Source of the DNA: Asterochloris sp. CNOR1
Taxonomy: Eukaryota; Chlorophyta; Trebouxiophyceae; Trebouxiales; Trebouxiaceae
DNA: 64,000 nucleotides
Assembly: GCA_963969365.1 (NCBI GenBank)
Contig: OZ017756.1
Span: 1,364,001 to 1,428,000, forward strand
Direction: 5' to 3'
Shown here piece by piece: positions 1 to 64,000 of the stretch. The notes under the pieces were generated by a model that was given only the letters and a program-made list of their open reading frames with translations, made no database searches and was not told the DNA's origin. Every line of letters begins with the position of its first letter. Positions within the stretch are counted from its first letter, which is position 1. The position numbers and the translations under genes are program-made.

Positions 1-297
1 TGCAGCCTGTAAGCTGGGGAGAGGGGTTTCGTTACTGAGGCAGTTGGCCCGAAATCTGAAGCACGGCAGGCTTCGGTCAGCACGCACTGAGAGCCGCCTG
101 AACCCTTGCTGAGGCCGTTTTGGTCCTTGGTTGTCATGAGTCTGCCGGGGCAGGGCCAGAGCAGCACCCAGTTGTGTTCCAGGGGACCCCCTCCAGCCCT
201 GGCCGCTTTGCTGCAAGCCAACTTGCCCATGCAGGCCACGAGGGGTCCGGCAGGCAAAGGCCTGCTGCCAGGCTCAGGAAAATCAAGTATACACATC

Positions 298-3200
298 ATG
301 TCCAGCATGAGAGTCAACGAGGGCGCAGGTCCCAGCGCATCACCCTTGCTGGACCCATCTGGCCTCACCAGCAGCCGTGGCCGTGTGGTGAAGCCCAGGC
401 AGTGGGATGATGGCACGGAGACAGCCCCACCTAGCGGTGAGCCCATATATGGGCTGCTCCTGCACACCATGCACACCTGCTTTGCTCATTAGTGGTCGGG
501 CCTTGGAATGGCCTTTTCTTGAAGTCTGGGCCTCAGAGCCACTCCTGCTGAGTGCTCAGACCAGTCGATGTGCAGAAGCTTCGCCACTGCACAACCTTCC
601 CTGGGGGTGCAGCACAGCTCTGCAGATGCATTGCTCAGCCTGCTGCCTGGTGTAGCTGGCCTGGGAAGCATGAGGCTCCCCAAGGGTGTCGGCCAGCAAG
701 CTGGAGCTGCTGTTTGCCTGTTGCCGCCTGGGAGGTCTGGTGCTTCCATTCCGCAGGTGTGGCCGGCCCGGGAGGCAGTGGCGGAGCAGGAAGGAGTAAG
801 CTCCCGCGGCGCAGGGACGAGAACTCAGAGTCGGAGCAGGACGACCAGCAGCCGAGGCAGCGCAAGTGAGCTTCATGCTGCGACGTTGGTGGCATTGAAG
901 CCTCCTGGTGCCCCGTGCCATGTTGCACACTTACAATGGGGCTGAGTGGTGCTGTCTGCAGTGCATGCTGCGCACGTCGCGGGCTGCACATTGCCAATCG
1001 ACCTTGAGAGCTACGATGTGGGTACGTGCAGCATGCTTTCGTAGAGCAACCTACTCTGAGTGGGTTCAAGGGGCTGCTGGCCTGCCTGCAGACACTGCAT
1101 CAACCGCACCACAGCCAGGTGGCCATGCATGTGCCATGCGGCGTGCACCTCCCCCCAGGCCGCCAGCTCTGACGCCACTCCTCAGCACTTACCTGCAGCT
1201 CCTCGCAGTGGCAAGCTGACTTTGCAATCCGCCTGGCCAGGCACGACCCCTGCAGATGATATGCTGCGTACCCAGTCAGGTTTGCAATACAGTCCTCTGA
1301 CTTGCTGCAGGCGCCGCGCCAACTATGCGATCAGCCTGGCTAAGCGCGGCAGCGTGCCGATCCGGGACGAGACTGGCCGCTTCATTGGCGTGCGCCCCAA
1401 GACGGCGGCCGAGCGGGCCATGAAGCAGCCTCTGGGGAGCGGTGGCATCTTCAAGAGCGCTGCTGTGGAGGTGCTGCGGCAAGAGAAGCGCCTGATGTCC
1501 ACTGGTGAGCCCTGGCAGGGGGTGCCTGTGGCCAGGCGGGTGAGGGCATGAAAGTCAGGTGGGGCACTGTAGTGACTCTCCTGCTGGGAGCAGGTACAGC
1601 AGTGCAGCTCTTACAGCAGAGAAACGCCTGGTGTCTGCCCGGTGGGACCTTGGGGCTGTGTCGCACTCAAAGGGCGCATGGTCCAGGATCAGGTGTGAGG
1701 TGCAAGGTGGCGCCTGATGCCCACTGGCAGGACCTTCGTTTTTGATGTACCACAGTGAGGAATGGGGAAGGGGGGCTGCTGCCAGATACTGCTTTGCGGG
1801 GCAGTTGCTGAGAGACTGCTGCAGTGAAGGTGCAGCAAGGTATTTCGCCTGCTGTTCATGGGAGAGGCTGACTGGCATTTAGTGGTATGGCGGTGGCGCC
1901 TGTGACGTCTGGGCAGAGGGAGTTGCCTGCAAGGCGGTGCTGCAGCAACACATGTGAGGTCTGGGGCTTTGTTTGCCACAGGCACCCAGGGCACCTGTGC
2001 AAAGGTGGCAGCTGGGAGCACCAGGGCCAAGGGCTGCTGTGCAGAGGCAGCCACAGGAGCACAATGGCGCCATTGTGCGTGCTCAGAACAGGGAGCCTTG
2101 TAACTTTTGCCCCTCTTGCTGCAGGCGCTGGTGCCGATCTGGCAGTCAAGCGCAGCCTCCTCACAGAATGAATGAGTGTATGGTATAATAGGCTGGAATG
2201 GCTGCCTCTTGCAGGCAACGGTGTCAGGCTGGCACTCCAGCAAGGCTTGAAGAACATGCTCAGGAGTGCTGACGTGGCCGCCTCTGCTGCAGGCGACATC
2301 GCCAAGCTGGCCCTCAAGCGCGGGCTGATCAAGTGTCAAGGGAAGACGCCTGAGGCGACCATGGCATCAGCCCTGTACACGGACGTCAAGCGCAAGGAGA
2401 GCAACTCTGTGTTCATCCGGCCTCATGAGGGCCTGTTCGGGCTGCGGGAGTGGGCTGACAAAGGCCTCGTCTTCAAGGTGGGCGTCCTCCACTGCTAATC
2501 ATCATGTAGGCCTAACTTGGCAGAGCCAGTGCCACCAGTGTGCAGCAACGAGTGGGAAGTTCAAGGCGACAGCTGGTGTACCACCAATTGAAGCCTTCTT
2601 CATGCAGGGACTGTCGGCTACCTGCCTTTGCTTCTGCAGAGCAGGGTGCCAACAAGCAACAGCGCCAACAAGGTGGTGGCAAGCAGGTGTACCTGCTGCC
2701 TGCTGGTGGCACTGCACAGCCCATGGAGCTGGCGATGATGGGGCTGGCAGGCCAGCTGCCTCCTGGCAGCACCAATGAGGGGCCTGGTGCAGAGGGCACT
2801 CTGCTGGCTGCCAACACCTCGACCCTGGTGCAGAAGGGACTCTGCGGTCTGCCAACACCTCAGGCCCTCACCGCCTGCACTGCCTGCCCTGCAGGGCAAT
2901 CTGGCTGGCCAGTATCACCATACACATGCTGAGCATGCATGCAGCAGCGCTTGGACAGCCCTATCCCACCTCACTCATTGTGCCCCGCAGGCAGCCACGA
3001 AGACCCTTTCACTCACCTTGCTGCCAGGCTCAGCTTTGTACCACAGAGGCTGGACCATTACTCCATCAGCAACAGCGGACACAGTTTGTCAGTCCCCCAC
3101 CGTTGTTGCTCAATCTGGGTGCCCCTGCAGAAATTCTAAGGCCCTCTGCTGGCTGCATGCGGCTGTTGGCAAGGCCCCCTGTCAGTCCTGACTTGCCTGC

Positions 3201-6200
3201 AGCAGCGCTCAACAAGCTGCTCCAAGTTCACTCACTGTGCCCTGCAGGATCCCATGGAGGACGAGGACGGCCCCATACTGCTGGACGAGTTTGGGCAGCC
3301 CGTGGTGCAGGTAAATTAGTTGATCCGCCATGCACTGACTGCCGCTCAGCTGTTGCACACCTGCTGCGCCCCTCTGTCAAACATTGCAGGCTGCAGGGGT
3401 GTGGAAGGAGCCCTCAGCTGCACAGCCTGCACACAGCTACATGCAGTCACGCTGCACACTGGCGGTCTGCCACAGGGGCAGACACCTGTGCTGGCTGTTT
3501 ACTGGGCCTTGCCTCCAAGTTTTTGTGCTGTGACTGAGCCTCCCTCCCTCCGCCGCTCCAGCTGGCATACCACTCATGTCAGGTGCTCCCTGGGGTTGAC
3601 AGAGACCAGGACTGCCTGGATCAATGTGCGTCTGCAGTCCCACTGGAATGGAGTTGCATGCTGCCTTGAAGAAGTCCTGCACTCAGTGTGGATATGCGCT
3701 GCCTGCAGGATGTGCTGCATGGGCATGGCTATGAGGAGGAGTATGATGAGGAGGGTGGCTTTGAGGGGCAGGGATACGAGGCCTCAGGTGCGCAGCCTGG
3801 GTTCTGCTGCAATGGTGGGAGGAGTCTGGCATGGACCGATGGGCAGTGTTTGTGCAGCTGCATCCGATGGAAGCCTCTCGGTGTTGACTCAGTGGGCCCC
3901 TGGCGGTGGCCGCACCCTGCAACACCTCTACCTGCTTCCGTCTGCTTGAGCTTGCATTGCAAGCTGCTGGCTGGGCTGCGCTGTTGCCTGCATGGCCTGC
4001 CTGCATGGCCTGCCTGCGTGACCTGCCTGCATCAGAGCGTATGGCTGTGACTCCAGCAGCAACCTGAGCGGCCTCCATGCCTGCCTGCAGATGGCGACAT
4101 CTATGGCTCAGAGGGTGAGTATGAGGGGTATGATGGGGTCGACTATTACGGGCGCGCCCCTCGCGTCCAGGCTCAGCCCCTCAGGCGCCGCCAGGAGGCA
4201 GAACAGGCCACTCCTGCACAGACGGCGCCGCTGCGGCCGCAGGCCAAGGTCAGCGCCCTGCCTGTCTGTTTGTGGGGCACTAGATAATGTCAGCTGCAGG
4301 AGGTAGAGAATTGCCATGCCTACACAGATGCTGCGCTGCCACACCAGGTTGCCGGTCAGTATCAGCTGCTGGGTGGGAGGGTGTCAGGTGGCCAGGCAGC
4401 AAAATAGGTGCGTTCAAGGCCTTGCAACAAGCTTGAGCCATATATGTGTCTATCTATTGTGGCCAGGCAGTCCAACTGCAGCTTGTTTAATCGCCGGTCC
4501 TGCCCAGTCTGTGCAGGCTGAGTCCCTCTCGCAAGTGCACAGGCCAAGCTACCTCAGAATCAGCAGCCTGCACAACATGCTGCAAGCATATACCTTCATG
4601 TGGTCTTACTCAGGAACCTTGCTGCCCGGGCAGGATTCATGCGAGACCCTCACACAGGATCCGCTGGAAACATTGCCCAGGCATTGCTGCTCTGCTGCAG
4701 GAGTCCCCTACCCCCAGCATCGCAGCTGCGGCAGCAAAGGCCAAGAAGGCCGCGGCTGACAAGGAGGGTAGCGATGACGAGAATAGCAACATCATGCTGC
4801 TTCTCAATGCAGCTGACCAGCTGGGGAAAGACGATGGGCCGGAGCCCTCCACTGCTGGGACCAGGGGTGAGCATGCTCTGCCAGTGCCAGGCCTTGCAGC
4901 AGTGCGTGCAGCGGGGCAGAAGCTACAGTACGCTGCCAGGCTGCATAACGTTGCCGACCGGCCTGCATCTGCATGGCGATGAGACGCAGAGCACTGGTGC
5001 TGATCTCCGCCCCATCAGGGTTCCCATCACAGTGCTGCCATCGACCCTGCTACCTCCAGCCAGAGTGGCCCAGCCTGTAGCGCCACACCGCTCACCCTGG
5101 TCTGTCAATAAGCCCATGTATGCATCTGGTGCCATGCGTGGAGAAGGCAACGAAAAAAGGTAACAAACTGTGCCTGTGCCTGCAGCACCAGGGGACGCAG
5201 CAATGGATGATGCTCACTACGCCCCGGGTGTTCGTGCTGCACGGCGTGCGGGGCCAGCTGCCAAGGGGCAGCAGGAGACCACCAAGTTCTCCCGGCCCCA
5301 CCCCCTGCAGGCAAGGCTTCACACCCGCTGCACTGCCTTCATGCGCACACAGGGGCTGCGGCTTGGCAGGTGCTGTGGGACTCTCCTCAACTGGATGGGG
5401 CACAAGCTGTTGCACTGTGCAGGACAGGCACACGCTTTGTGCGGGTTGCATGATGCACAACACACTGTCTGCCATAAATTGCCAGGGGCACCTCACTTCA
5501 CTCTGCAAAAGGGGTCATCGCATTTGCCTGCCACCATAGCAGGCACTGCGCTGCTTCAACGCCACAGCAGGCAGACATGTCATTGCCTAGTGCTCCCCAG
5601 GCACTGCCCCCCCAAGACCATCCCTGGCCTGTGCTGCTGTGGTCACTTCCACCACCCAGTAGCATGCAGCCTGAACTCAACGGGAGCAGGCAAGCTCCTC
5701 TCTCATGTAAGTCGTTTCATTGGCCAGTTCCAGCTTGCCTGCACTGGGTGCAGGCTGCCAGCGGCAACGACAAGGCGCTGCTGCGCTTGATCCGCAGCAA
5801 GAAGCCCCGTACCACGAACATGCCCCACCACAAGAGCTACCCCTCCTCCCCTGAGGTGAGCCTGAAGCACTGAGTACAATGAGCTTGGCGCCCATCAATC
5901 TGACGGTGTGGAGCCACATACCTTATCTGCTGTTGACCGTCCAAGGGCTCTGCTACCCTGTGCATCAGCACCACTCAGGCGCAACCTGATGCAAAGAACT
6001 GTGACTGCTGCATGAGGATAACATAAGCACATCAACCATCTACAAGCGCTCTGCCACCATTGCAGCCACATCTCTCCTGAGTGCAGTCTGAGGCAAGTAA
6101 CCATGTCTTCTGCAGGAGGACACCACCATTGACCTGACAATCTATGGGCACTCTGCCACCTCTGTGGGCGCCCTTGAGGAAGGAGAGGCAGGCGCCACCC

Positions 6201-9200
6201 TGGACTCTGAGGCTGTCAACATCCTCAACCTGCCCGTGCCGGAGGTGGAGGACACCGTGGAAGGTGAGTCATCTTGAAATCCTGCCTGCAATGGTGGGCC
6301 CTATGGTGAACTTGCCACAGCTGCAGGCTGACAGGTCACAGCCTGCAGCCTGGCAGTTGTGGCCAGTGCGCTGTTGCAGGGTATCCATGCTTTACAAACT
6401 AACTCTAGCACCTGCCAGCTGCATGAGCCACCGGCATCTGGCAGTCTCCTTCTGGCGCTGCCGAATGGCAACTATGGCACAGCTGCAGGACTGCTGTTGA
6501 TACACAGCGCTCCTGACTTGTTGCCTGCCAAAGCTGCGAGAATAAGCTTACACTTGGCAGCCTGCTTCTGGCTGCTGCCACACAATTGCCAATGGGCTGC
6601 TGCAGAGCCTGCACCAGCCCAGTTTCCCACTGCTTCTGGCTGCTGCGCTGGTGGCCTGACCCCTGTGACTCCTGATTGTGCCTCACCGTATGTTCTGCCA
6701 GGACCCAGCAATACTTACTTTGGCGAAAGGCATACTGCATGGTCTGCACTCTTGAGCATCATCAGCCCCTCTTTAGAGCGCAGATCATGTGTCAGCAGAA
6801 CCTGCAGGATACTGGTGCAGCCTTTCATGCCTGGCAGCATCAGCCATGTCTTCTGCAGGAGCTTCAGGGTGGTCTAGCCAAGGTGCTGGCAGAATGCCAA
6901 AAAGAATTTGGTGCAGCTTCTCATGTCCTGGCGGCTGCTGCTCACCGCAAACCTCTGGTCTTGCAGGCCCCTAAATCTGGCCTGACGGGGTGCCAGCAGG
7001 AGGCAGCAAGGCAGTCGCTGCAGTCGCTGCAGTAGTGCCTCACATCTAGCCGCTGCTGACCACCGCTACAACTTGAATCTTGCAGGAGCCCAGGGCGGCC
7101 CCGATGAGGTGCCAGCAGATGCGGACCCCGCCACTCTGGAGGCAGTTGATGTAAGCAAGCCAGCGGGGCGGACAGCCCAGGCAGCACAGGGACCCCCGGC
7201 AGGGCACGGGAGGGATGCAGGCGGCGACGACCGCAGCGACACCACCCATCAGCCAACAGAGGTGAAGCAAGTAAACCTTCTCCCTACTAGCAACAAGTTC
7301 CCTTATCGTTACAAGCAGTGATCAGGGCATCTGCTGGTTGTCTGGTTGCATTGTCCTGCAAGCTCATGTTGGCAGCAACCACTCACCAGCTCACACAGGT
7401 CAGCTGCACCTATGAGTTGGTGCTTGCCTGCTGGATGCTGGAGTTGCAACCGTTACGTGGTCGCCATCGTCGTAACACCGCTCAACAGTCACAGAAACGT
7501 TCACAGGCAGCGCTTGAAGCAGACTGCATGCCTGGCGCTTGAATGGGAGAGAACAGCGTGCCTCCACTGCGGACTCAGGCATCTGCATGCATGCAGAAAG
7601 CCCGAGCTGAGGTGGCTGTACCTGCCCTGGAGGCAGCCTGGATGTCTGATGACTGCAAGTCAGGCAGTGCAGATGTGGATGTGCGTCATACATGCTGCTT
7701 GGAGGGCGCTCTACCGTGTTGTCTATTGTTCCAGCCTGAGGGCTCAGCATATGAGCAGGCTGGCAGGCCAGAGCATGCAGGCCGGGGCTGCAGCTTGGAG
7801 GCCGGTCCTGAAGCGGCGGTGGCCTGTGTGCAGGATGGGTGGCTGGCGGGCACAGACGTGGTGCACAGGGAGCGCCTGCAGGCTCTGGAGGCCAACGTGC
7901 TGCTGCTGGAAAGCAGCCTGGGCGCCACCCACCCCCAGGCAAGCTGTCTGCGCCACCCGGCCCTGGCCTGCACGCATGTCTGCCTGTGGAGGCGTCAAAT
8001 TGGTGCTGCATCTCTGTGTGTCACACACCCAGAGCTGGGGGGTTAGCCATTCATCGGAGGGCAAGGCCACGGGAGCAGTGCAAGTACCAAGCTGCTACAC
8101 AGGTTGCAGGTGGCTGCGTCGCCTTGCGCCTTGATGCCCAGCCACCAAGGGCTGCTGTTGGGTGGACCCTGGTGCGGCTGGTCTCAGGCCCCGGTGTCAT
8201 GGCTTTAAGATGTACGTTGCGTGCAATTTCGAGCACTGCCAGAAATCTCGAGCTGCAACGCCTGCTGTGCTGAGGAGGGCTGATCAAAGGGGTTCATCAC
8301 ACCTGATTGGCAGGGCTGCAAACAGCATGCTGCCTGCTGCCTGCTGCCAGTGCATTGCACAAGGCATACCATGCTGCAATGAAATCACATGCCTGCAGTA
8401 AAGCCCTTGTGGGTACTTGCCACTGCAAAGCAAATCCTTGCTGTGCAGGTTGGCAAGGCTTGGCTGTTCCTGTCCCAGCTGTACAAGACCAACCCCAGCC
8501 CTGCCAGCCAGCAGATGGCAGAAGCTGCCCTGGTGCGTTCTTGGGAGATCTATGCCCTGTGCCAGGTAAGCCCAAGCTGTGGACTGAGGATGTAAGAACA
8601 GCAAGAAGAAGGGGCCCTGTGACTCACCATTGGCTGGGCCGTGTTGTTGCATTCACACCCCTGTGTAGGTGTTCACAGCATCTCTGGGTGAGTGAGCAGG
8701 GATTCGACCTGTTCGATGCCAAGTTCAGCATCTGAGACCTGACGCATGCTCAGATTGTCACCTTCAAGGCCGAGTAGGCATCAGTGCTGTTGCTTCATGT
8801 TCTCCCTGCTCCTTGAACAGAGAAGGCCAATATGGGAAAATCGGCTGCCCGGGAAGCAGCTGTTCCTCAGGACTTCGCTTGGCATCAAGAATGAACTGTG
8901 TTGCTGCTGCAGAAAGCCAACACGCCTGAGGAGCTGCCCCCCACCTTTGTCAGCAGCTTCAGCTACCTCCTGGACAAGATCTCAGCCCCCAACAGCGCGG
9001 CGGCAGCTGCAGAGGCTGCCTTCGAGAAGTTTGCGGCCGCTGAAGCTGTCGCTCAGGCTGCGGAGGCTGTTGCAGCAGCAGCTGCTTGTGTGGCTCCAGG
9101 TGCCCTGCTGCTGATCAGGAACATGTAAAGTGCAGCTGGTAATTGTGAGGTTTGCACCGTAATGGGGCTCGGCTGTCCTGAGAAGACATCCCGCAGCTTC

Positions 9201-9851: not shown

Positions 9852-12800
9852 CTAGGTGCTGCCATGTTTTTGGATGGAGTGCTGCATGAATGACAGCGAT
9901 ATGAGCAAAGCCTCCTCTGTCCTGATTGTTCTGCTTCCCTGGCTGGGGCAAGTATTGATCCAGTCATCAAATAGGGATTCCACCTGCCCCTCTCCCCTCT
10001 CTGCTGTCCAAGCTGCCTCCAGCCCTGATGGACCTCCAAAGCAGACCAACAGGTGCTTGAAGGCCTGCCTTATTGGCCCTTTCCCACCCTCCACTACCCT
10101 GCCACGCTCTGAGGTGCCCACTGTGAGGTCATACCCTTCCTGCACACAATGCGGCAGGGGCATTGCTTGAGGATCAAGTTTTGGCAGCTATACTCTCATC
10201 CTGGTGCCTGCATCGAAGTGTTTGCCGCTGGGTCACAACCCTCCTGCAACCAGGGCCAGGGCATGAGACAGACACTGATGGTCTGCATGCTCAAATGCCT
10301 GGCCCATAACCCCTCAGAGGCCATTGTCAGGGCGTGGGGTCATGCCTGCACAGGGTGGCAGGGGCATATTCAAGGTGGTAGGGACATGACTCTGTCAGGC
10401 ATCAAGCAGAGAAGTGGTGGACTGTCACACGCACTGCACCTCAGCTGCATGCATCACCTCTACAACAGAAGCGACTAGCTCTTGAGATGTGGTGCATGTC
10501 CCAGACAGAGCAGGCATCACCTTGCCACTTGCATCATTAGATGAGTGTCCCAAGCAGCTCAGGCGCTCTCTGTACATGAGAGCCATTGCGTCAGCACCTT
10601 CTCCAGGCAGCAGCACAAAGGTACACAGGCCAGGGTATGCAGTGCACCCTCCCAGTCTCTTACCTGAAAGCTCCTGCCCTGCAGAAGCTGTGGGCCTCTT
10701 TCATGTCAGGCAGCCAATCCTTTGCCAGTGCACCCTGTGCCAGCTCCTCTGCCGTCAACCACCCCTTACCTGGAAGGTGCTGCCATGAACGACTTGCTCT
10801 AGGCTGTGCGCAATGCGCGTCATGTAGCCCCAGTAGAGGCCGCACTCCTCGCGGGGCGTCTGAGGCAGTGCCAGCTCGGCTGCCAAAACCCGCTCAGGTT
10901 GTGTGGCCAGCGTCGGTTGGTTCAACTCATGCTCTGACGGGCTGTCCCCCATGCGCAGGGTGACGCGCATGTTGGTGCGCGCTGCCACAGGCAGAAAGGC
11001 GCTCTGCAGGTGAGGGACACAAGGGCATGTGCTCAAGGCAGCGGCAGGAGTCAAGTAAAGCGAGGTGGATATGGTGAGCTGCAGCTTTCTGCCTCAGGGG
11101 CCAGTGGGGCAGCTTCAGTGCAGCAAAGATGCGGCCAACTGTGTCCTGCCACACGGTGGCCTGCACGGTGCCCGCTCTGGCGTGGGGGCTGCCACAGGCA
11201 GCAAGGCCTCTGCAGGGAGGCAGGCACAGCAGGCTCAGTGCTGTAGGGACCACAGGGTGAACTTGGGCAGAGAGTTGGAGTTTGGGCAGCACAGGGGCGG
11301 CCGAGCAGGTTCTGTGCAGCAAACACAAGGACTGGCGACGGCTCCTGAAAGCAACAGAGCAAGGCAGCCTGCAACCCTTGTTGCGCTCACAAGGCGCACC
11401 ACCCTTTCACAACGTCGGCAACCAAGGGGTGCTCTGAACCTGTGGCTTATGGTTGGGTTATGTCGGGTTTGATTCTTTAAGCAGCGTTTTGCTTAGAGAT
11501 TCAACTGCACCTGCTTAGCTGTCCCATTGGCAATGCTTCAGAGACTGCATGCAGCGCTTGCCCTGCTGGCAGCCCAGCGCTGCTGCACTGCAGTCAGTAC
11601 AACACCCCGCCACTGCCAGTTCCTGTGACAGCCCCCTCAGCCCCAGACCTGCTGCCTCGCCTTCTTGCCCCCAAGATCAGCCAGGCTGCTGCCGCCTGAA
11701 ATGCTGCACACTGAATCCCCACCCTGACTTGCCTGGCATCAGATCGCCCCTGCTCAGGAGCTGCTGCCGAGAAAGCTTGATATTGCAAATGCAGGTCTGT
11801 ATGCACCCCTGCAGCTGGCTTTTAGTTCTCAGGAAGTATCGCCAAGCTGCCTGCAGCAGGCCGCACTCGTGCCCTGCCCCACGCTGGCCTGCTCTGCATG
11901 GCGCTATGTCCCACACCGTGAGCAACACTGCTCGCAGGCATTTGCCACATTGCCCAACCTTCCACGGCGCAGCCATATCCCTGATGCCAGCAATGGTTTG
12001 GGGTGCCTCAACCGTTTAAACCTTACAGCTGCCCATTCAGCCCAACCACTGCGTGCCTGGGAAGGTAGAGCGGTCGCACACCCCAGCCCCATGGCACCCA
12101 CAGGCGCCCTAAAGGTGCAAAGCTTACCCTGTCAAGCCCCACGTCCACCAGACTGCCCGCCCCCGGCGAGCTGCGCAGCACGACTCCCTCTCGGAAGGGT
12201 CCCCACTCGGCTGCCCTCATGTGGTGGGGGGCGTCCAGGGGAGGCAGGGCTCCTGCCTGGCGCAGGTCCTTGTGCATGGGCAGAAGGGCCCTGCAGCAGT
12301 GAGTTGAGGGGTCTGTGCATGATGCTGGGTGAGACCGCAGTCCAGGTGAAGGCAGCATGCAGAGGCCCTTGTGTGTGGGCAGCAAGGCCCTGCAGCACTG
12401 GGACATGATGTCAGTGCATGAGGGCTAGGACAGCCCAGGGTCAGAGCAGCATGCACAGGTCCTTGTGTGTCGTCAGCGGGGACCTGCAGCAGGACCGGGA
12501 GCTGGCCTTAGCACGGCGGGGTGCTTCAGCAGCATGCGCAGGGCCGCGTGTGTGGGCAGGCCAGCCCTGCAGCAGTGGCAGGAGGGACTGACGCATGAGG
12601 AAATGTGCAGGCTGCAGTGAGTCAGCATGTACAGGCCCTTGTGCATGAGCAGCGGAGCCCTGCAGCATATTGGCGGCCTGTCGGCGCTGTTTGGGCAACT
12701 GGAGGTGCATGGGCAACCTGTACATGCCGCCAGTGTCTGGGCACACGGGATAGAGTTGCCTGTGCATGAACAGCCAGGACATGCAGCTGCCAGGTCACGG

Positions 12801-13584
12801 AAGCAGGCACTGCAGCAGCACAGGTGCTTGAGTGCCAGCAGCAGGGTAGCATGCTTCAGGCGCGGCACAATGACTTTGAATGCGTGACCCAGTGGGGCAG
12901 AACCACAAGGCAAAGGCCAGTTCTGCAGACATCTCAGAGCAGGTCCCTGTGGCTGTCTGAGTGGAGAAGACGAGGCCTGCGAGAGGGTGCGCGGGTGCCG
13001 CTACTCACCTACGCAGATACTGTGGCGTCTCCATGAACTGCAGCACACGCGCGAGGAAGGCGGTGCCGCTGGTCACAGAGGTGCTGCTGCCAGTGCCGCT
13101 GTCATCGAACACGACCACCTGCGAGTGCCGAGTTGAAGCAAGCTTGCGGCATCAGCAGGATGAAGCAAAGTGTTATGTTTGCAGAGGTGCAACAACAGAT
13201 CAGGATGGAGCAGGGTGTGCACACTTGAGCAGACCAGGATGCAGCGCGGCTGCTGGTCAGCGGGAGATATAGAGTGGGCGTGTGATCGCCTTCTGCCTTT
13301 GTGGTGAACTTTTGGCAGGCAGCTGGCAGACTGCCTGTCTGACCTCATCCACATTAAAAATGGCTGCTGCACGCGCGATCTGGCCGGCTATGGCAGTCGC
13401 TTGGTCAAAGGTCTGTGTGTTGTCAATGATGCTGCCTGGGACTGCAATAGACAGTGTCCACTGCCTGCAGGTACAGGACATCATGAGGCCTGACTGTGCC
13501 TCCAGAAGGGGCCAACAGGCTGTTAACAGTCTCTTACCTTCCTCTCTGTTCCTCATCAGTAGACAGCTTTCTCCTCTTTGCCAT
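9852..13584 (-). CDS. SPOUT1: SPOUT1/C9orf114-family SPOUT RNA methyltransferase
   Basis: Putative S-adenosylmethionine-dependent RNA methyltransferase of the trefoil-knot SPOUT superfamily (human SPOUT1/CENP-32). Exons on the minus strand: 13584-13538, 13464-13344, 13118-13009, 12290-12128, 11003-10770, 10139-9852. All phases close and give 320 aa with a TAG/TGA-type end after KHGST. The N-terminus is short and basic (MAKRRKLSTDEEQRGR), fitting a nuclear or nucleolar protein. Family landmarks in order: LSIAVPGSIIDN, AGQIARAAAIFNVDE, ARVLQFMETPQYLRR, ALLPMHKDL, LPPLDAPHHMR, FREGVVL, GLYWGYMTRIAHSL, GYDLTVGTSERG, FGGPSGLEAA, NTCPSQGSRTIRTEEA. The last three form the cofactor-binding knot. The intron before exon 12290 is swollen by tandem copies of that exon's own acceptor edge. 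The identification is secure; the RNA target is not shown by sequence. Confidence 0.95.
12291..12820 (-). repeat. Tandem array of splice-acceptor/exon-edge copies in SPOUT1 intron
   Basis: The true acceptor of the SPOUT1 exon starting at 12290 (minus strand CTGCAG followed by codons for ALLPMHKDL) is followed upstream by diverged copies. Their CTGCAG acceptors lie near 12390, 12484, 12577 and 12660, with weaker ones near 12781 and 12811, so the period is about 83-99 bp. Translated in the exon frame they read ALLPTHKGL, SPLTTHKDL, AGLPTHAAL and APLLMHKGL, clearly the same exon start. No copy is needed for the protein, which joins the last copy directly. Confidence 0.85.
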
Positions 13585-17597: not shown

Positions 17598-19176
17598 CTA
17601 GTCAGAGTTAGTGTAGCTCTCATAAAATGGTTGCAGCCCTGCAAGCTTGCTGAGGGGAGCAAGCAAGTGCTGGAAAACAAACCAGAGTGGCTTTGGCACA
17701 TCAGCAAGCACCAAGTTTCCATGCACAAAAGTTAAAATTAGCTGCAGAGGGTTTACTGCCTCTATCTGGCCAAAGTCCGTGCCCAGCCCGCAGAAAGTCC
17801 TGCACAAGGAGAGACAGCAGGGTCAAATGGGGCAGAGCCACCCCTGACAGTGCCAGACAGGCTACAGCGCAGCCCTACTTACCTGAAGAACTGTGTGCCA
17901 TTGAGGCAGGTGTGAGGGTGATGCAGTGCAGCCCTACTTACCTGAAGAACTGTTCGCTGTTGAGGGCGGGTGTGAGGGTGACCTCGACATCCAGATCAGT
18001 GGAGTTTGCGGCATTCCAAAAGGTGTGGACTGCAGGCAGGCAGTGCTGGGTGCTGAGCAACCTGCTGCGGCTTGAAATGCAGGTAGCACACGCCAGGGGT
18101 TGCCGGATGCTCCACTGCTGTCAGCAGGAGTGTCTCTGGCGGCGGGACAGATGCAGCATGCCCCTCCTTGAGACTCAGCCAACAGGCAAGTGCAAAGGGT
18201 TTGCTCCCAGTGGCTCAGCCTGAACTGCATCACACCTGCTCCAGGCGGGATGCACAGAGGCTTGGACTTGGTGTCTGCTGGTCCCAGCTGGCCTTCCTTG
18301 CCTTCCAAGGTGTAGGCAAAGCGGCCTGAGATGATTCTGAAGCATTCTGTCTGCTTGGTGTGGATGTGGAGTGGTGGGCTGGCGCTCTTGCCTGCATTTG
18401 GACTTCAGAGTGGGACCAAGCAGTATTCAATTTTGGCCAGCGCTGCAGAGCCCATGCTCAGCCAGCACTTGGCCAGAGCGGGTAGCAACGCAGTGCCTTC
18501 TCTCAGGCAGCATGGCATGCATGGAGAAGGATGCAGGGCCAGCAACAGCCAGCAGATGGGCTTGCCCAGCCTGTATGTGGGTCTGAGTGCAGCTCAAACT
18601 CTCAGATACCCCCACTTCAGACCCCGGTTGTGCAGCAGAGCTGACTCGCCACAAAGGCAGCAATGTTGACCCACTGTGAGCCAGCATGGACTGCAAGCGT
18701 GCACTTGTTAGACCCTAACCATGTCCTGGCCTGCTTGACTGGGGTTGCAGTGCCTAACATCAGCAAGGTTGGCTCCTCCTCCCCAGGTGGGCCTTTCTTC
18801 TTGGACAGCCAGAACAGCGGCTCAGCATGGGAACAGAAGAAGGCCCTCAGGGCTCACCTGGGATGGCGCCAGGGGCTCCTGCTCTGCACAGGCCAGATAT
18901 CACAAATGGGTCTGTTGCAGTTGCCTGGCCCTTGGGCGCCTGCTTGAAAACAAATCTGCATGCATGAAGGAAAGCTGCTGAACTGTTCTGTGCCAGGTGT
19001 TCTACAGTCCTAGTGAGATGTTCAGACCGGGTGCCACTGCCATCTGCAGTGTCCTCAAAACTAGTCCTCCCAGCCAGGCTAGTGCGCCGGATGCCAGCAT
19101 GGTGCACGCGGCTGGCGCCCAAACCAAGTGCCACCAGGACAGTGAGGCCTGCCGCCAGCCAGGTGATAATCTTCAT
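17598..19176 (-). CDS. Single-domain cupin with N-terminal membrane anchor
   Basis: Exons (minus): 19176-18858, 18391-18236, 18029-17942, 17799-17598, closing in phase to 254 aa. The start MKIITWLAAGLTVLVALGLG gives a hydrophobic signal anchor or cleavable signal. The conserved cupin motif 1 is visible as LHIHTKQTECFRIISG (H-x-H-x4-E-x6-G) and motif 2 as IPPGAVHTFWNA. These are followed by VEVTLTPALNSEQFFR and the C-terminal tail LADVPKPLWFVFQHLLAPL, LAGLQPFYESYTN, typical of cupin-2 proteins of unknown function. The residues between the anchor and the first cupin strand look unlike the family, so one exon may be missing between 18391 and 18858. A 59-bp duplication sits on the donor at 17942. 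The adjacent bicupin gene on the same strand is a different subfamily, not an obvious tandem copy. Confidence 0.82.
17870..17987 (-). repeat. Tandem duplication of a 5' splice site (cupin gene)
   Basis: The exon end and donor at 17942 (unit 17929-17985: CTTACCTGAAGAACTGT ... GTGTGAGGGTGA on the + strand) are repeated at 17870-17928, offset 59 bp. Both copies keep ACTTACCTGAAG, meaning exon end TTCAG plus the GTAAGT donor. The downstream copy is one base shorter, so use of its donor would shift the reading frame. Confidence 0.85.
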
Positions 19177-23879: not shown

Positions 23880-24549
23880 GCAGCACTCAAGGGTGCAGTG
23901 TGGTCAATCGCTGTCTGGCAATGGATAGCCTTGCATTGATTTAGACTGGGAGCATAGGCGTGAGGGGGTCTGGTGGTGAGGGCTGGGCTGTACCTCAATG
24001 TCTGGAACATACAGCTGTAGTGCACTGGTTTCATTGGGGGCTTCATTGGAGCTTGTTGCACCCGCCAAGGTACCTGCAGGGCCATGTGGGTGAGCACTTG
24101 GGCAGTCAGCAGCACCTACCTGGGCTCCTGCGCCTTGATGATGCCCAATATGTGACATATGTTTCAGAAGGACTGTGAATTGAGCAGTGCTTGCCTCCCT
24201 CCTGCAGAGGTCATGGACCCTATCAAAGAAAGCGCCCTGGAGTCCCTCCCGCAGCATCCTAGTGCGCTGTCCAGAGCGCTTGGCACATCACCAGCCACTT
24301 GCACAGAGTTCAGCGGCACATGACATACCACAAGCTAGCACCTCGTTCGATGTTTTTGCCAACAATAGCATGCTGCTTTCACAAATTCAATTGTGCACCC
24401 AGCACTTTCGTCATACACAATTGGGGCTTTGTGGCAAGGTCCTTCATTCGATCATTGACTGGGAAGCAACGTGCAGAGCAGAGCAGAGAGTTGACTCACT
24501 CAGAAGTGAACACTTCTGCATTTTGAGTTCGTGCATTTTGAGGTCGTCA
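23880..24549. other. Intergenic, S40-like to APEX2
   Basis: About 670 bp between genes on the same strand. It should contain the S40-like 3' UTR and the APEX2 promoter. Just before the APEX2 start there is a short direct repeat of GCATTTTGAG (near 24519 and 24534). I see no gene. Confidence 0.6.
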
Positions 24550-47600: not shown

Positions 47601-50600
47601 CATGTGGCAGTTGACTCAGGTGCGCTGAGCCGTGCTTGCCTGTTTCCAGGCTCCACCCTGCCCGGCATTGAGTGCTGTTGGTTGTAGCAGCTGATGCTGC
47701 AATGCTGTGCCCCGCGGGAGTCTGTCAGCTCAAAGCTGTTGCACTTGTCATGCTGCCCATCCACTGCATGCACATGTCTGTGGCAGCAGCTGCGAACGGT
47801 TTGTGCCCTTCTCTTGGGGCATGTGCCACCTGGTGTCTTGCAAATCATGCTGCGCAAACATCACATGCAAGAGCACATGTTCTGCCCGCTTGTGGCAGCT
47901 GCAGCAGGCATGGTGTGCTGCCTCATGTCTGCAGGGGACCACATCTGCCATTGTGGCAGCTGCAGCAACTGCAATTTGTCCTGCATCAATTTCCTGTTCA
48001 GTCATGCCCAGGCATGCTCTGCATGCACATACAGAATCTGGCTGAGCCCAACAATCCCCAACCATGAAACCATGTGGTTTGCAGACTCACGCCTGGCAGC
48101 AGCGCGTGGTTGAGGGGGGCAAGTATGAGTTCATATATTTCCCTGAGGACATCATTGTGCAGTCTGGCGCAATGGTCAATCGGTGGGCGCCCGTGTGTGC
48201 ACTGCCCTGCATGCCATACCTGTTGGGTTGGTCTGGGCCGTGTCCATCCCCCTTTGTTGGGCCCCTCCCTGTGCAACAGCAGTGGAAGTGGCCTTGGTTG
48301 GGCTTGCAGGTTCTTTGAGCTGGCTGGGAGCCCTGTCTGTACCTCGCATAACCCTCCCTGTGCACCCCAGCTGCAGGCTGCGCGTGCTGAGCCCTGTGTG
48401 CTTGAGGTGGTCCAGTTGTTGCATGCTCCTCCCTGGATCCTTTGCCTCTTCGCTCAGCCTCTGCCTGCTGCTCCGCAGGCTGTTTGAGCTGGCTGGCGAG
48501 CACCGCCTGGACATCGCGCACCCCTCCCTGTGCAGCGACCTGGACTCCACCTCTCTCAACATCGAATTCAACCGCGTCAATCCCCATCGCGTGCTGCGTT
48601 TCACCAGCTGGGTGGACTCCCTGGCCCCCCTGTTCTCCTTCTCCTTCTTCCAAGAATCTGTGGTGGCCACGCTGGAAAACGCGCACTCAGGTGGGGCTGA
48701 AATGGTGCATGCGCATCACCCAGATCTGATGCTACAATGCCAGTTGACGAACACGCACTCAGCTGGGCCAAATTCAGTGGTGCCCCTGTTTCTGGGACGC
48801 TGTAAGTCGACTACCTGGTAGTGTGTGCTCAGATGGGCACATGTACATGCATGACTTCAGAACCCCTGCTCAGATAGGGTCCCCTACAATGCGCACAACG
48901 GGATCTGCATTCGTCGTGCTGGGAACCATGCACACAGGTGGGGGCATGCCATTGCTCCGCAGCACCCCAAGATCCTGTACCCAGGACCCGAATGTTGCTA
49001 CGTCAGAGGATGGGCACACCTCTGTGCATGTGGGCTCAGAATAAGTGCTCATATGGCTCCCCACTGTAGTTCTCCTGTGCATTTAGATAATGCCACACCG
49101 GAGACTGTATGCTGAGGTGAAGCTGTCCTCCCTGCAAGCATCAACACTGTGGGCAGCGTGCATCAGAATGCATGAACTTGTACAGTCTGCCACAGCTCTC
49201 AACCACCAACCTCTTTTGCAAGCCTGCCAGGATCAAAGGCATCACATAAACGTCTTGCCTGGGCTTAATGTTGTGGCTGTCCAAAACTGCTTTTAGCGAC
49301 TATGGCCTGCAGCTTGAGGCAAGTAGGCATGCTGTAAGCCTTTGCCTTCCTATATCTGACGGTGGCCATCAGCACGCACTGCACAGTGTTTGCTGGCAGT
49401 CAACTGAACATGAGCTCGGCCCTGCTGCAGGTTATGGCCTGGACTACATCTGGCCCTGGTTGGCTGGTTTTCCCCAGGACCGTATAGCCATTGTTGACGA
49501 CCTCTGCGTCTTGCGGCCAGCCAAGCCCCTCGCCATGGACACAAAGCCCATGAAGGTGAGCACAAAGGAACCAGGCAGGTTCGTGGCAAGCAGTACAAGT
49601 TTCTCATGCCCCCTGCTCATCAGCTTGCCCTGCACACCGTGGCTGCAAAGGTGAGCAGCCAGCCCATATCTCGCGGCCTGCACTGCATCATGCAGCAGAG
49701 TCATCTGCCAGGAAGATGCCGCACCCTCCAGTTGAGGTGAGTAACTAGGATGCAGCGCAGGTCTTCAGCTGGCATCGCTTACTAATTCAATCCAATCTGC
49801 CCCACGATGATTGTCACCCCCAAGGCTCAGCATGCTGATATTTCAGCTGCACAATATTTGCTGTAAGTGCCTCAAGGTGCAGGGAAATCTGCTGCGCCCT
49901 CAACAGAGTTGCATGTGCTTGTCTTGAACCATGCGTGCTATCTCTGCTCGTGCAGGAGAGGCAGCGCAGCAAAACCAGCGAGACATGCCTGCACAAAAGG
50001 GTTCTTTGCTCTTGGTGACAGTCTGCTGCTGCAGGTCAGGCATCTGCTGTGGGCACTGCCCCAGGCAGCTTGCTGTCTGTAAGGACTGCAAACTAAGATC
50101 CTTATTTGCCACTGACGCAGAATAGGCAATTGCTGCACATGCAGCAGGAGAACGCGAGAACTCCGCAGTCATGACTTTCATTGGAGTGGGTCTTAGGCAT
50201 TCATGCAGCCGTTCTGCCAGTGCAGGGGAGGCAGCCGTTGTGTGCTCAGCAGGAAAGTGGTGTATGCAGCATTGCTGAAGCATCAACAGCAAGGGAACCG
50301 CTCGCTTTTGTTGTGCTGGTGCAGGGCAAGCAGCTGCTGTATGCCCAGCAGGAGGAGCGGGACCAGCTGCGGCGGGCAGGTTACAACCCCATCCTGTGGG
50401 GGGTGGCTGACAGGGCGCGTGAGGTATTCAGTGACGTTCCTCAGGCCTGGTACCAGAGGCTGCTCGAGCTGGGGAACCTTCAGGTGAGAGCTCCTGGGGA
50501 TGGCTGCTGGTACAAAATGCCTGAATTGTACCAGATGCTGCCCGAGCTGTGGCACCTCCGGATGAAAGCTGTAGGCCAAAAGAGCCAAGAGCGGTGCCAG

Positions 50601-55500: not shown

Positions 55501-58500
55501 TAGGCACAAAATAACATGCTTGCAGGGTAGGGGCAGGTTGCTCTGTTCTGCAAAGCTTGCAACACGGCAGGTAGTGCAGCACCATGCCACAGGCAGCCAC
55601 CTGGCTCTGCTTCATGAGCATGGTGTCACTCTGTCTGCACTGGCTCTTCCCACACCTTTCCAGAACATACACTGCTCAAGCGCCCGGCGCCTCTGCAACA
55701 GCTTCAGCAGATGCTGCTCTGCTTTCCAAAGCACTCCAGGGCTATGTAGTCCACCGCAAAGTAGGTACCCACCGGCGTTCGCATGATCAGCGTGGCATTG
55801 CTCTGGACGCTCTGCTGCAGCTGCTGCTGGTGGCGTGGCTTGTGCATCACATGGGGGTGCTGCTCCAGGTACCTCATAGCTTCTGTGCTGAGGCTGCTGA
55901 TGCTGGAACAGGGACTTGAGTCCCCTGACGTCTGCACCACTGCATAAAGGGTCACAAGCCTCCAGCAAGCCCATTGTTGCTGCACGGACTAAGGTGCATG
56001 CCACACACTGCAGCTGTGGAGTGGACTGGAGGCATGTTGGCGATGCTGGAACAAGGGCTGTATCTCCTGTCTTCTGTCCTTTGCGTCAGCGCATACAGGG
56101 GTCACATGCTCCAGGGAGCTGCTGAGCTTGGCAGCATGAGATCGGCCATGAAGCCACACCTTCACTAATGGACAGACCTGAGCAGTCGCATCGACCAACA
56201 GGCAGTCTGCAGCCTGTGTGCATGCATTTCTGGTGCCAGAGTACAAGCGCACAGGAGCTCACAGAGGAGTCATAGGGCGAGGCATAGTCAACATCTGCTG
56301 GCTCGACTACCAGCCAGAAGAAGACCATGATGGCCATGGCTACCATGATGAGACCAGGGGCTATGAAGGCTCAGCCCCAGCCCAGCCTCAGAAAGTAGGA
56401 AGCCACCACAGACCCCTGCAGAAAGCGAGAAGGATCTTTCCCAGCTTCCTCAGTATTTCGAAACAGCGGCTTCTGGAAGTGGCCTCAGCCTCCACCCAAG
56501 GCCTCTCTGGCTTGACATCTTGCACATGAGATATCTTCCTGCATCCTCACACACTGCTGTGAGCAGCTGAATGCTTGAAAGGGTTGACTCAGGTGGCCTC
56601 GGCCATGCTGCAGTATGCCTAACTCTCCATGCTTCTGGTACATGAGTGAGCACAGTGAAGCGACTGCCTTAGACTGTGCAGCCTCCAGGCACCCATGACA
56701 AGCAAGCAGCTGCAGGCCTGCCGTGGATTATCAGATGCTCAATAGTATGATCCTGACAAGGATGTACAGACACAGCACCCAAGTCAAGTAAGCAATTGCA
56801 GACCTGAGAAAGGTCTACCAAATAGCAGCTAAGCTCACCAGCATGTTGCCCACAGAGGTGTGGCTGTTCCAGGCACCCATGACCAGCCCCCTCTTGCCCT
56901 TGCCATACCAGTTGGCCATGATGCTGACCACAGACGGCCAGCCACAAGCCTGGACGAAGCCTGCACAGTGACCAGTATGCCAATCTCTTGGGGCTGTCAC
57001 CTGATGAAGCGGCTTCGTGGTGGAGCCCAGCAACAAGGTGGCCAGTACAGGTGGACCATCTTCCAAACGCCATGTCAGCGGCCAGCAGCATGCTGCAGCA
57101 GTCCAATGCAGCACAGACTGCTTTTACCAAAAGCATGGCCGTCTGTGAACAGCCACGAATAGCAGCAGCCAGCAGCCTGCTGCAGCACAGGGCATGTCTG
57201 CCAAGAGGCAGAAGGGTGCAGAAGCCCACGCGTCCCTACAGCCAGCCTGCTGCAGCTGCTGTACTGCCTGAGGTAGGCAAGCCTGCAGAATGTCCTGAGT
57301 GCTGCAGCAGTTGGGGGACCACGCTCACAATGACAATTTTGGAAAAGAGTCCTGGGGAGGCCAAGCAACCTTCGTTGCATGGCACCCACCTGCGCAGGCC
57401 TAGACCACTGTGAACTACCACATCGTATGGACGCCGAGCAGCTGGCCTGCCCCAAATGCGCAGGTCAGGAGAGCACTGCCCAGCATGCCAGCCGTGAGGA
57501 AGTACCTGAGGTTCAGACGGTCACCCAGGTGCCCTGCAGGTGCATGGGTGTGGGCAGTGACATTAGCTGCACAGCGCTGCCAAGCATGTCGGCTGTAAGG
57601 AAGCATCTGAGCTTCAGCCTGTCCCCCAGGTGCTCCAATGGTGCACATGTTGGGGCAGTAACAACTGCAGTGTGCAGCTGGCGACGGACACCGTCCCAGT
57701 ACTCACCCAACAAGTAATTTTACAGGGGTTTAGCAGCTGATGAGCGTGAATGTGTATGCTGTGGTGGCTAACCAAGACATCCAGGCCGCAAGCAGGCCCA
57801 GCTCACCAGGCCTAAACATTTGCTGGCGCCATACCTGCTGACGGGGAGTCAGTTGCATGCCATGGCAAGCACCAGCTTGGCAGCCAGCTGTAAAAAGGGC
57901 ACAGCTCACCAGCCACAAACATGCCAATGGCATAGCTGCCCAGGAAGGCCACATCAAGGTCCCCCAAGTAGCTCTTGCCCTTTGGGCCATTGAAGGGTGC
58001 CCACCCCATCTCCATCTGCGATGGGGTCTGTGGCCAGGGGAAGACTCCAGCACCTGCAAATATAGAGCTGCTCATGATGCAAGGCCTACCATCATGTGCA
58101 CGCCAGGGCTGCGTGGTCAGTGGCCAGGGGAGGACTCCTCTGCCTGCGCACAACACCTTATCATGCGCAGCTTGCATACCACCGCAGGCAGCAGCTCAGC
58201 ACTGTGCAGCCATACGCTGCCCGCATATACAGAGACATTTTCGAGGTCAGGGCCAGTAAGGCAGCAGCCCCATCACACGATGGTGGCAAGGCCTCCAGGA
58301 CCTAGGTTTTCTCATGAGAATGCAGCTGCATGCAGGGCTGCACTGAGTGCCATAGGGTGCCAACTTCCCAACATCAACTCGCACTTGCCTGCCAGGAAGT
58401 CCACGTAGTCGTTTGAGCCGCCGCCTTTAGGATTCAGTCTGTTGACAGGTAAATCCAAGGCTGTGGCATTGTTGCTGCCCCGCAGCACAGTCTTGACAAT

Positions 58501-62200: not shown

Positions 62201-63865
62201 TACGAAGCCGTGCTGAAGCTGCATGAGTATGGTTGCCGCCCCTGATGTGCCAGCCTGCTGCCAGGCGCAGCTCCTTGATGTGTGCCATCCTGACAATGTG
62301 TGTGCACCGTGCTCTCTGGTTCAGTGCCTGGACCTGGACGATGAGTTGAACACCCACAGCAATTGGCACGTGGAGGCTGGCCCCTCAGCCACAACCCAGA
62401 AGGTTCTGCTGGGCATGCAGTGGGCAGTGCGCCGCTTTGACTTTGACTACTTCATGAAGCTGGGGGACGACTCATACTTCAGGCAAGCAAACACAGAGGA
62501 AGAGAAGAGGGGTGTCTGCCATCGGATGCTCTGTTCTTGTATTATTCATGTTGCAGCTCCAGGCAAGGAAGAGAAGAGGGATGTCTGCTGTCGGGTGCTG
62601 CGTGCTTGAGAACCTCATGTTGCCGCTCCAGACAGAACACCAGGCCTGACACACTGTATGGGGTTGCCTGCTGGGCGTCTTACACTGCCTCCAGCAGCGC
62701 GCAGCTGTGAGAAACAAACCACACTCAGTACAGCCACATTGCGCAAACTGTGGCGTGAGCTAATGCTCTGCTGAGATGCCAAGCAAGCTGCGTCGCACAG
62801 CTGTGCTCGCGCAGCCTGCTTGGCTTTCGAGAGCCTTCCGTGTCCTCCAAATTTTTCTTCTGCACCTGTGCATCGTGTTTGGGTTGTCTGGACCCCCAAC
62901 ACCTCCAGGTCTCCACCCACAGTCCACTCACGAGGCTGCGGTGACAACCTCAGGCTCACCTATGCTGCATGCTTGGGAGTGCTGCCATCAGAATGCGCAA
63001 TGCATATACGAACACCTGGCCCTGCAGGGTGGACAAAATGGTTGGGATGATTGCCAATCAGATCTTCCCCAACAAGAAGGTGGTGGTCGGCCAGATCCTG
63101 GAAGCTGAGGTCCATGGAGTAAAACTGAAGTATGCACAGGTGCGGTGTTGACCAAACCAAGCATCAGAACTGAGTACTTGTTTTGCTTGCTGACTACCAG
63201 AAAGAAATACTCAGGTCTGATGCCTGGTTGAGCTGCCATGCAGCCTTTGGCAGCCAGCAATGTGCCGCTGGACCCCAGTGGCTCTCTGCTGCAGGGCATG
63301 GGTTATCTGGTGTCCCACGACATCTGCGAGTTTGCAGCCCATGCCACACAGCACCTGCTGGACACAGCCCCCGAGGTAAGCACCGTGAATCCAGCATAAG
63401 TTCAAGGAAACAGGTTGGCTCTGCACATGTCGTGGAGAACACAGTCTTCTGAAGGTGGCGCCTGCCAGCAGGTTTCCCCACTCCGCAAATACAGCAAACT
63501 CCTGTGTGGCAGCCTGTCATGGCAGATAGTTGACAGCATGCTGCCCTGTGCAGGACTGCGTTGTTGCGAAATGGATGATGGCAATGGGAGTCAAGTTTCA
63601 GCATCACAATGGCTTCAGGTATAGCAACTGTGAGCCCACTGTCAGCGCAGCAAGTTGCTACTGACATCCGGCTGTGCACATGTGCAGGGATACTGATTTT
63701 CAAGCAAGCTGCGACAGTGAATTGATTGTGATGGTAAGGCTGTTGCTGCTGACTGCTTTATATTGCAATGAAGCAGCATCATCACCAATACATCTGCGGC
63801 TGCAGCATAAGCTCAAGCCTGAGCTCTGGCCCCGCATAAAGGACAATGGCGAGTGCACAGCCTGA
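59213..63865 (+). CDS. GT31-family beta-1,3-galactosyltransferase-like protein
   Basis: Golgi type II glycosyltransferase. Exons: 59213-59290, 59714-60235, 60357-60628, 60849-60997, 61483-61598, 61915-61986, 62325-62482, 63028-63139, 63244-63375, 63554-63618, 63688-63733, 63806-63865. All phases close to 593 aa. A signal anchor (MAAALGRFKIALMVF, then VILLLILQ) is followed by a 280-residue Gln/Ala/Ser-rich stem with a short coiled coil (LSKEELIAQLHRLQQQQ). The catalytic part shows FYSLFVLTTSG, RKQWKRN, FPVIMRFAVGTL, ENRAAMYREDAEHHDVTF, DLDDELNTHSNW, the acidic nucleotide-sugar motif FDYFMKLGDDSYFRVDKM, GMGYLVSHDICEFAA and DCVVAKWMMAMGVKFQHHNGF, a GT31 pattern. The intron after 62482 uses a GC donor, fixed by phase because the DDSYFR-VDKM core spans it. 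Donor sugar and acceptor cannot be told from the sequence. The acceptor chosen at 63243 is the least certain junction. Confidence 0.86.
61385..61470 (+). repeat. Short tandem repeat ahead of GT31 exon 61483
   Basis: TTGGGCTGGCAGCATGACA (61399) and TTGGCTGGCAGCACGTGAA (61440) form two units of about 41 bp in the intron just before the acceptor. Confidence 0.55.
62476..62640 (+). repeat. Tandem duplication including the GC splice donor (GT31 gene)
   Basis: About 80 bp starting TCAGGCAAGC (62479), with GAGGAAGAGAAGAGGGG and GTGTCTGCCATCGG, is followed by a second copy starting CCAGGCAAGG (62561), with GGAAGAGAAGAGGGA and TGTCTGCTGTCGG. Both units end in a CATGTTGC(A/C)GCTCCAG block. The repeated unit therefore carries the non-canonical donor with it. 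Confidence 0.8.
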
Positions 63866-64000
63866 GGGCCCCTGGCAGCCTCCTGCACTGCTGCGTTTTT
63901 ATGCTGCTCTCCTCCCTTTGCTATCAAGCACTGCAGAACTGCCATCCCAGATAATTGCTGAGGTTTGCTTGCTCGTTTGAAAATGTTTTGACCTGAAATG
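63866..64000. other. GT31 gene 3' flank to window end
   Basis: Downstream of the stop the sequence becomes AT-richer, as expected of a 3' UTR. No further gene is seen. Confidence 0.5.

Follow-up and report, generated by a model that had tools for sequence, protein, structure and literature searches.

Local copies of exon edges in the introns of the green alga Asterochloris sp. CNOR1 and a possible intron-growth ratchet

We have analysed a 64,000-nucleotide stretch of the green alga Asterochloris sp. CNOR1 (GenBank assembly GCA_963969365.1, contig OZ017756.1; G000:C11:1364001-1428000 in our numbering), hereafter the window, in which introns hold diverged copies of the edges of neighbouring exons. 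The parent assembly comprises 56.4 Mb in 21 contigs. Eight gene models lie in the window, compared with twelve genes in a preliminary description made from the sequence alone, and the gene finder seems to merge neighbouring genes. Pfam domains were found in eight of the ten window segments tried, namely MutS domain V, MFS, cupin, Exo_endo_phos, galactosyltransferase, glutaredoxin, Pus10 and HARE-HTH. A MutS2 protein has a PF00488 match and aligns to the solved homologue 9kce over several predicted exons, and an SLC37-like protein aligns over several predicted exons with the solved homologue 23ic, named Os08g0156600, which we take to be a rice protein. Repeat pairs that match a copy lying across a predicted splice site with an intronic copy occur in seven of the eight models (22 such pairs, at spacings of 45-517 bp); the eighth (59552-63865) has one intron-intron pair and no splice-spanning pair.

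Statistics were obtained from 314 kb of sequence, consisting of the window and 250 kb from contigs C1, C2 and C5. Genes were predicted with a self-trained hidden Markov gene finder, seeded with five window stretches that looked coding by eye, which yielded 48 gene models and 717 introns with a median length of 230 bp. Its exons end in CAG and start with G; the trained donor signal is CAG/GTGAGC and the trained acceptor signal a strong (C)TGCAG/G. Repeats were detected by banded local self-alignment (match +5, mismatch -5, offsets 20-1020 bp, score of at least 110) after masking of simple repeats, which made up 0.13-0.22% of each piece, and overlapping pairs were merged into 149 clusters. The clusters were classed according to the position of the two copies (I, intron; S, spanning a splice site; E, exon) as II, IS, EI, SS, ES, EE or GG, and comparisons of class shares were limited to II, IS and EI, which hold 127 of the 149. 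For the classes and the later statistics, predicted exons shorter than 25 bp were folded into introns, reducing the 717 introns to 592. Counts of decoy sites, intron lengths, site positions, donor-to-acceptor alignments and the similarity left beyond repeat ends use the annotation that keeps these micro-exons.

The search returned 181 local direct repeat pairs, 39 of them in the window. Control counts were 2 for a cross-locus comparison, 0 at a distance of 20-21 kb, 0 for locally reversed sequence and a mean of 1.0 per run for local block shuffles, and there were 5 local inverted pairs with separate arms (non-overlapping arms only; the number is 93 when overlapping palindromes are included). 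Chance similarity of CTGCAG-rich sequence had been named in the preliminary description as one thing that would undo the observation. CTGCAG is over-represented in introns and exons and also in predicted intergenic DNA, and with 0-5 pairs in the controls against 181, composition is ruled out as the source of the repeats. The copies are direct and close by, with a median offset of 101 bp (5th-95th percentile 30-275 bp), and this is the arrangement expected of tandem duplication. Tandem Repeats Finder reported 10 rows in the window, probably so few because many of the pairs are diverged or spaced. Three window arrays were searched in the whole assembly and each matched once, at its own locus (the search skips very common words), so dispersed repeats or an introner-like element were rejected as their source. 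Introner elements, which enlarge the intron content of algal genomes, are dispersed and similar copies, unlike these three arrays.

Copies were found in 110 of the 592 introns. The 149 clusters fall into classes as II 46, IS 67, EI 14, SS 12, ES 4, EE 3 and GG 3, where random placement of the same pairs expects 49.7, 30.1, 14.7, 20.4, 10.6, 7.1 and 11.1, respectively; IS is thus above placement, and the exonic and exon-side classes EE, ES and SS are below it. A splice-spanning copy has its partner in an intron in 67 clusters and in an exon in 4, and 61 of the 68 decoy sites lie within the very intron that is bounded by the real site. Introns with a pair have a median length of 405 bp (n = 113), compared with 207 bp (n = 604) for introns without one; longer introns also offer more room, and intron growth by local duplication is plausible. 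The preliminary description had reported exon-edge copies inside introns, at donors and acceptors and on both strands, decayed to differing degrees and usually with the splice dinucleotide kept. These statements hold: 30 donors and 38 acceptors are involved in the sample, micro-exon sites included, and the dinucleotide is kept in 23 of the 30 donor copies (GT or GC) and in 26 of the 38 acceptor copies (AG).

We consider it rather probable that pervasive small tandem duplication is mostly absorbed by introns through the use of the outermost splice sites, so that introns grow by a ratchet. Small tandem duplications, mostly within the range of offsets given above, would arise frequently and be joined with little or no microhomology, the DNA mechanism likely being slippage on the template or end joining at staggered breaks. 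A duplication that falls within an exon would usually break the protein and be lost. One inside an intron or over a single exon edge would survive, since joining the outermost donor to the outermost acceptor during splicing would restore the old mRNA. The inner exon-edge copy would then be trapped in the intron with its splice site unused and would decay neutrally, faster where both copies are intronic, and repeated rounds would produce longer introns and rows of decoys in a one-way manner. The local repeats, their classes, the neutral decay of decoys and the single-locus arrays are observed directly; from them we infer the survival filter, and the gene models suggest that the outermost sites are those used in vivo. 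For intron length in compact genomes, a measurable supply of small duplications absorbed mainly by introns would be a simple mutational ratchet. Under such a ratchet, decoy splice sites in the course of decay should be present at all times as a stock, and whether duplication has hot spots at splice sites can be tested cleanly.

If duplications survive only with at least one intronic copy, many of them must span a splice site. The spanning share among II, IS and EI clusters is 67/127 (0.528), and plain placement under the condition that one copy be intronic expects 0.318. Tandem duplications with uniform breakpoints, tolerance and decay were also simulated and passed through the same detection as the real data, with no exon change in the first simulation and exon change at 0.25 or 0.7, then 0.25 or 0.1, of the intron rate in later ones. 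The simulated share was 0.40, 0.41 with mixed ages and 0.46 with exons fully conserved, against which the observed share gives p = 0.002, 0.006 and 0.09, respectively. The clusters comprise 66 adjacent head-to-tail arrangements, 80 spaced ones and 3 in between. Adjacent pairs, 25/53 of which span a splice site, agree with the simulated 0.40-0.46 (p = 0.17 and 0.33), and when pairs are placed within the same exon-intron-exon unit, without decay correction, 22 spanning adjacent pairs are seen against 16.8 expected (z = 1.7). In ten young adjacent pairs, length minus period is -6 to 3 in nine and 12 in one that has more than two copies; repeat length therefore approximates the period in those nine, and long homology at the breakpoints is not needed.

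The density of repeats likewise bears on whether the process is centred on the splice site. The share of sequence covered by repeats is 11.1% in introns, 7.9% in exons and 1.9% in predicted intergenic DNA. On the intron side, coverage is 0.08-0.09 in the first 60 bp, 0.12-0.13 beyond 80 bp and 0.127-0.128 beyond 100 bp from the boundary. The 20 bp next to the splice site have a coverage of 0.095 in the exon and 0.09 in the intron, and within exons it runs from 0.093-0.095 in the first 40 bp to 0.046-0.050 at 60-140 bp. Coverage thus peaks inside introns and drops towards exons, interrupted by a small local rise at the exon edge. The relative position of the site within the repeat does not differ from uniform (Kolmogorov-Smirnov p = 0.88 for donors and 0.92 for acceptors). 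Of the recurrent, splice-site-centred process that had been proposed, the recurrence, the intronic copies and the decayed decoys stand, and the splice site as centre of the whole is not supported. A higher density of repeats at splice sites than elsewhere is not confirmed; concentration on these sites beyond tolerance and decay is not seen in adjacent pairs and is seen in spaced pairs.

Several observations on the spaced pairs weigh against the ratchet as a full account. Among them 39/71 span a splice site, compared with 0.28-0.39 under the null models (p = 0.0007 and 0.0045 for the tandem simulations, p = 4e-5 for a copy-and-paste simulation with uniform sources). The best mix of two simulated tandem age classes gives 26 spanning pairs for the 39 seen (p = 0.001), and placement within the same unit, again without decay correction, expects 13.3 (z = 8.1). 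Strictly scored young pairs span in 11/32 cases, compared with 0.19 under plain placement (p = 0.026), a result from 36 young clusters (17 II, 11 IS and 4 EI), a number too small for a decision. If the spaced pairs were old tandem units alone, copies in exon interiors should outnumber spanning ones, and 14 EI and 39 IS were seen. The stretch from the repeat end to the predicted tandem end has lost all similarity at donors (mean 29.5, control 29.6) and keeps little at acceptors (31.2 vs 29.7, p = 0.17; p = 0.046 when compared with the sequence beyond). Spacers of 26-300 bp were compared with the flanking sequence by a search that allows larger indels, and 62 of the 73 tested are not colinear with it at p < 0.05. 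The remaining 11 are colinear (overall p = 0.001), so part of the spaced class consists of broken tandem units. The flanks of the young pair C1 68732/68882 (63 bp, period 150) contain, as read by eye, an older middle copy about 75 bp from each. Simple two-copy tandem duplication of all pairs is rejected for the spaced class, although colinear spacers left after indels rescue part of it; broken and nested tandem arrays explain a part, and 62/73 are unproven.

Further points against the ratchet come from outside introns. Exon bases more than 140 bp from the exon end are repeat-rich again (0.107). Of the 1591 repeat-covered exon bases that lie 60 bp or more from either end, 953 fall in five long predicted exons (L009 8902-9589, L004 4662-5027, L011 7546-8172, L019 1180-1678 and L024 7978-8373), which may be falsely predicted or consist of repetitive coding sequence. 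Predicted intergenic DNA in the sample (the window and L002-L026) has 514 repeat-covered bases, compared with 2360 expected by rotation (p = 0.0005). This scarcity may reflect constrained untranslated regions and promoters, or duplication tied to gene bodies, and a uniform process fits it only if that DNA is mostly constrained untranslated region or promoter. Exonic survivors are not clearly in frame, the period being divisible by 3 in 1/3 EE, 2/4 ES and 2/12 SS clusters. The ratchet alone also leaves unexplained why spaced pairs are additionally concentrated on exon edges.

This edge preference withstands every null tried, and tandem duplication with tolerance and decay does not account for it. 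It may arise because copies derived from exons are lost more slowly, because long exon-like decoys are selected against, through gene-model error or from a true hot spot. The hot spot is a tentative proposal that we consider doubtful: exon edges in this lineage would promote templated duplication, in which the splice site, with about 40 bp of exon on one side and a piece of intron on the other, is pasted 50-250 bp into the adjoining intron through a lesion linked to transcription or splicing, such as a stalled polymerase, an R-loop or a nick, or through templated repair at the exon edge. The figures for spaced and young pairs favour it, as do the depletion in intergenic DNA and the slight coverage maximum at exon edges. 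The exon part measures 27-62 bp in 51/67 (76%) of the spanning clusters, compared with 46% expected, and in 31/39 of the spaced spanning clusters, compared with 48% expected, in a range picked post hoc. It is opposed by the higher coverage inside introns, by the uniform position of the site, by the fit of adjacent pairs to a uniform model and by the 17/32 young pairs that are intron-intron, and the excess itself could be mimicked by the first three causes listed. If exon edges were hot spots, splicing itself would shape where DNA duplicates and how introns grow.

It is very unlikely that sequence composition or faulty gene models have produced the pattern. The models are self-trained without RNA, micro-exons and merged genes occur among them, and model error could still inflate the excess in spaced pairs. 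However, the controls exclude composition, the 67 spanning clusters are those that remain after dropping exons shorter than 25 bp, and homologues align over predicted exons in MutS2 and SLC37.

Selection that keeps the decoys as backup or regulatory splice sites is, if anything, a shade less credible still. Conservation is higher in the columns of the splice motif (0.82-0.89 for acceptor positions -4 to +1 and 0.73-0.87 for donor positions -1 to +5) than in the flanks (approximately 0.67-0.77), but neutral decay opposite a conserved real site predicts the same. Donor-side intron flanks have an identity of approximately 0.68, which corresponds to a one-branch identity of 0.815 and to an expected neutral retention of the dinucleotide of 0.66. 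Decoy GT is kept in 21/30 cases, with GC in 2 more (p = 0.85), and decoy AG in 26/38 (p = 0.87). Retention at the neutral rate means that selection on decoys is not needed, and the motif is not kept above that rate. Mismatches in the exon part by codon position of the real exon (0.23, 0.22 and 0.28) suggest a neutral copy opposite a coding exon. Among real sites of the sample, the (C)TGCAG/G acceptor is unusually strong (T 0.90, G 0.93 and C 0.97 ahead of AG), and GC donors are common (25/365 introns that have a predicted exon of 60 bp or more on each side), in a CAG/GCAAG-like context. Least credible is that the copies are traces of intron birth through tandem duplication of an exonic AGGT segment, to which the CAG exon ends and G exon starts would be suited, since that model pairs a donor with an acceptor and the 68 sites here align with an intronic decoy of the same kind, the six alignments of a donor edge to an acceptor edge within one intron (among the 181 pairs) including at least four that involve predicted micro-exons.

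Duplications that span a boundary have been published as single cases (PMC4974935, PMC2812944), and tandem duplication is documented as a route to intron gain (PMC3443670, PMC2891723); the exon-edge copies described here are a widespread form of this known remodelling. The Rogers model, in which tandem genomic duplication leads to intron gain, is reviewed in PMC3443670 and has a potato RdRp case, for which the relevant passages of PMC4974935 describe a tandem duplication over an intron-exon boundary that alters gene structure and in which duplicated splice signals matter. Tandem duplication at the boundary and duplicated splice signals are shared with our loci; the potato passages concern a new intron in one gene, whereas existing introns hold the copies here and the outer sites appear to be still in use. 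In human duplicated genes, tandem repeat units lying across exon-intron boundaries alter the introns and may bring cryptic sites into use, and the minisatellites concerned average 30-bp units in four copies and occur in 7% of genes in segmental duplications, according to the corresponding passages of PMC2812944. The loci described here differ in having few, diverged copies at a longer median offset and in most window models. For Drosophila near intron pairs, the passages in PMC2891723 give intron sliding or tandem duplication, the latter as a coding duplication followed by intronisation of one copy; this resembles the present case, although the instances there are few and create new intron positions. 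In relatives of Chlamydomonas, median intron length is 198-343 bp with no short-intron peak (PMC8226300), similar to the median in our sample. The passages on long introns in that paper name no mechanism, and local duplication is a candidate there. Among the literature matches listed, none has a title or opening of the abstract that describes a genome-wide stock of intronic exon-edge copies, a weak sign that none has been described, most subscription papers and all bioRxiv preprints being outside the scope.

Table 1. Exon edges and their intronic copies in the window (window coordinates)
Feature	Position	Strand	Details
SLC37-like transporter exon edge, copied; acceptor 57534, exon 57447-57533	57472..57562	-	75% identity over 91 bp to 57573-57663, period 101; protein aligned to 23ic
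Intronic copy of SLC37-like exon edge; exon part 62 bp, intron part 29 bp	57573..57663	-	Repeat alignment
MutS2 exon donor edge (32484), source of copies	32473..32521	-	Pairs with 32295-32342 (178 bp); in longer pair 32280-32521 with 31763-31999
Intronic copy of MutS2 donor edge	32295..32342	-	Repeat alignment
More overlapping copies, same MutS2 intron	31763..32194	-	31893-31987 with 32099-32194; 31957-32040 with 32301-32383; single assembly match
Acceptor edge (32646), same MutS2 exon as donor 32484	32596..32694	-	Pairs with 32794-32894 (198 bp); spacer colinear with flank
Intronic copy of MutS2 acceptor edge	32794..32894	-	Repeat alignment
Cupin gene model donor edge (17942)	17924..17981	-	Tandem pair, 88% identity, period 59
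Adjoining intronic copy of cupin donor edge, with decoy donor	17865..17921	-	Repeat alignment
Multi-copy array, period ~99 bp, over acceptor 12291 and small predicted exon	12263..12865	-	Single assembly match
Acceptor edge (11004) and intronic copy, period 208	10955..11323	-	Repeat alignment
Acceptor edge (2293) and intronic copy, period 76; another copy from 2112	2192..2328	+	Repeat alignment
Acceptor edge (3248) and intronic copy, period 259	2929..3259	+	Repeat alignment
Acceptor edge (6116) and intronic copy, period 101	5942..6160	+	Repeat alignment
Acceptor edge (7086) and intronic copy, period 96	6813..7118	+	Repeat alignment
Acceptor edge (22256) and intronic copies, periods 93 and 207	21959..22331	+	Repeat alignment
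Donor edge (22450) and intronic copy, period 173	22409..22692	+	Repeat alignment
Acceptor edge (23096) and intronic copy, period 157	22926..23145	+	Repeat alignment
Donor edge (25019) and intronic copy, period 45	25001..25149	+	Repeat alignment
Start of exon 48479-48690 with acceptor end (48475-48534); copy 169 bp upstream (48306-48364)	48306..48534	+	82% identity over 60 bp; class intron-exon, not spanning
Donor edge (50484) and intronic copy, period 78	50450..50570	+	Repeat alignment
Acceptor edge (55932) and intronic copy, period 143	55899..56119	-	Repeat alignment
Acceptor edge (58054) and intronic copy, period 90	58025..58165	-	Repeat alignment

Duplications on a larger scale and fused models were also encountered. 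The single gene model at 20989-28677 of the window has one in-frame stop ahead of its exonuclease/endonuclease-family part and probably fuses two genes. Two adjoining stretches of the gene model at 42159-48690 encode related proteins, YGLDWVWPFKLGFPQDRIAIIDE and YGLDYIWPWLAGFPQDRIAIVDD, for which a Pfam search gave no match at 0.001; they are probably a tandem gene duplication. Elsewhere in the sample, two predicted exons (L015 9759-9839 and L015 9963 to L016 43) are near-identical over 81 bp at a spacing of 204 bp and represent a recent exon duplication.

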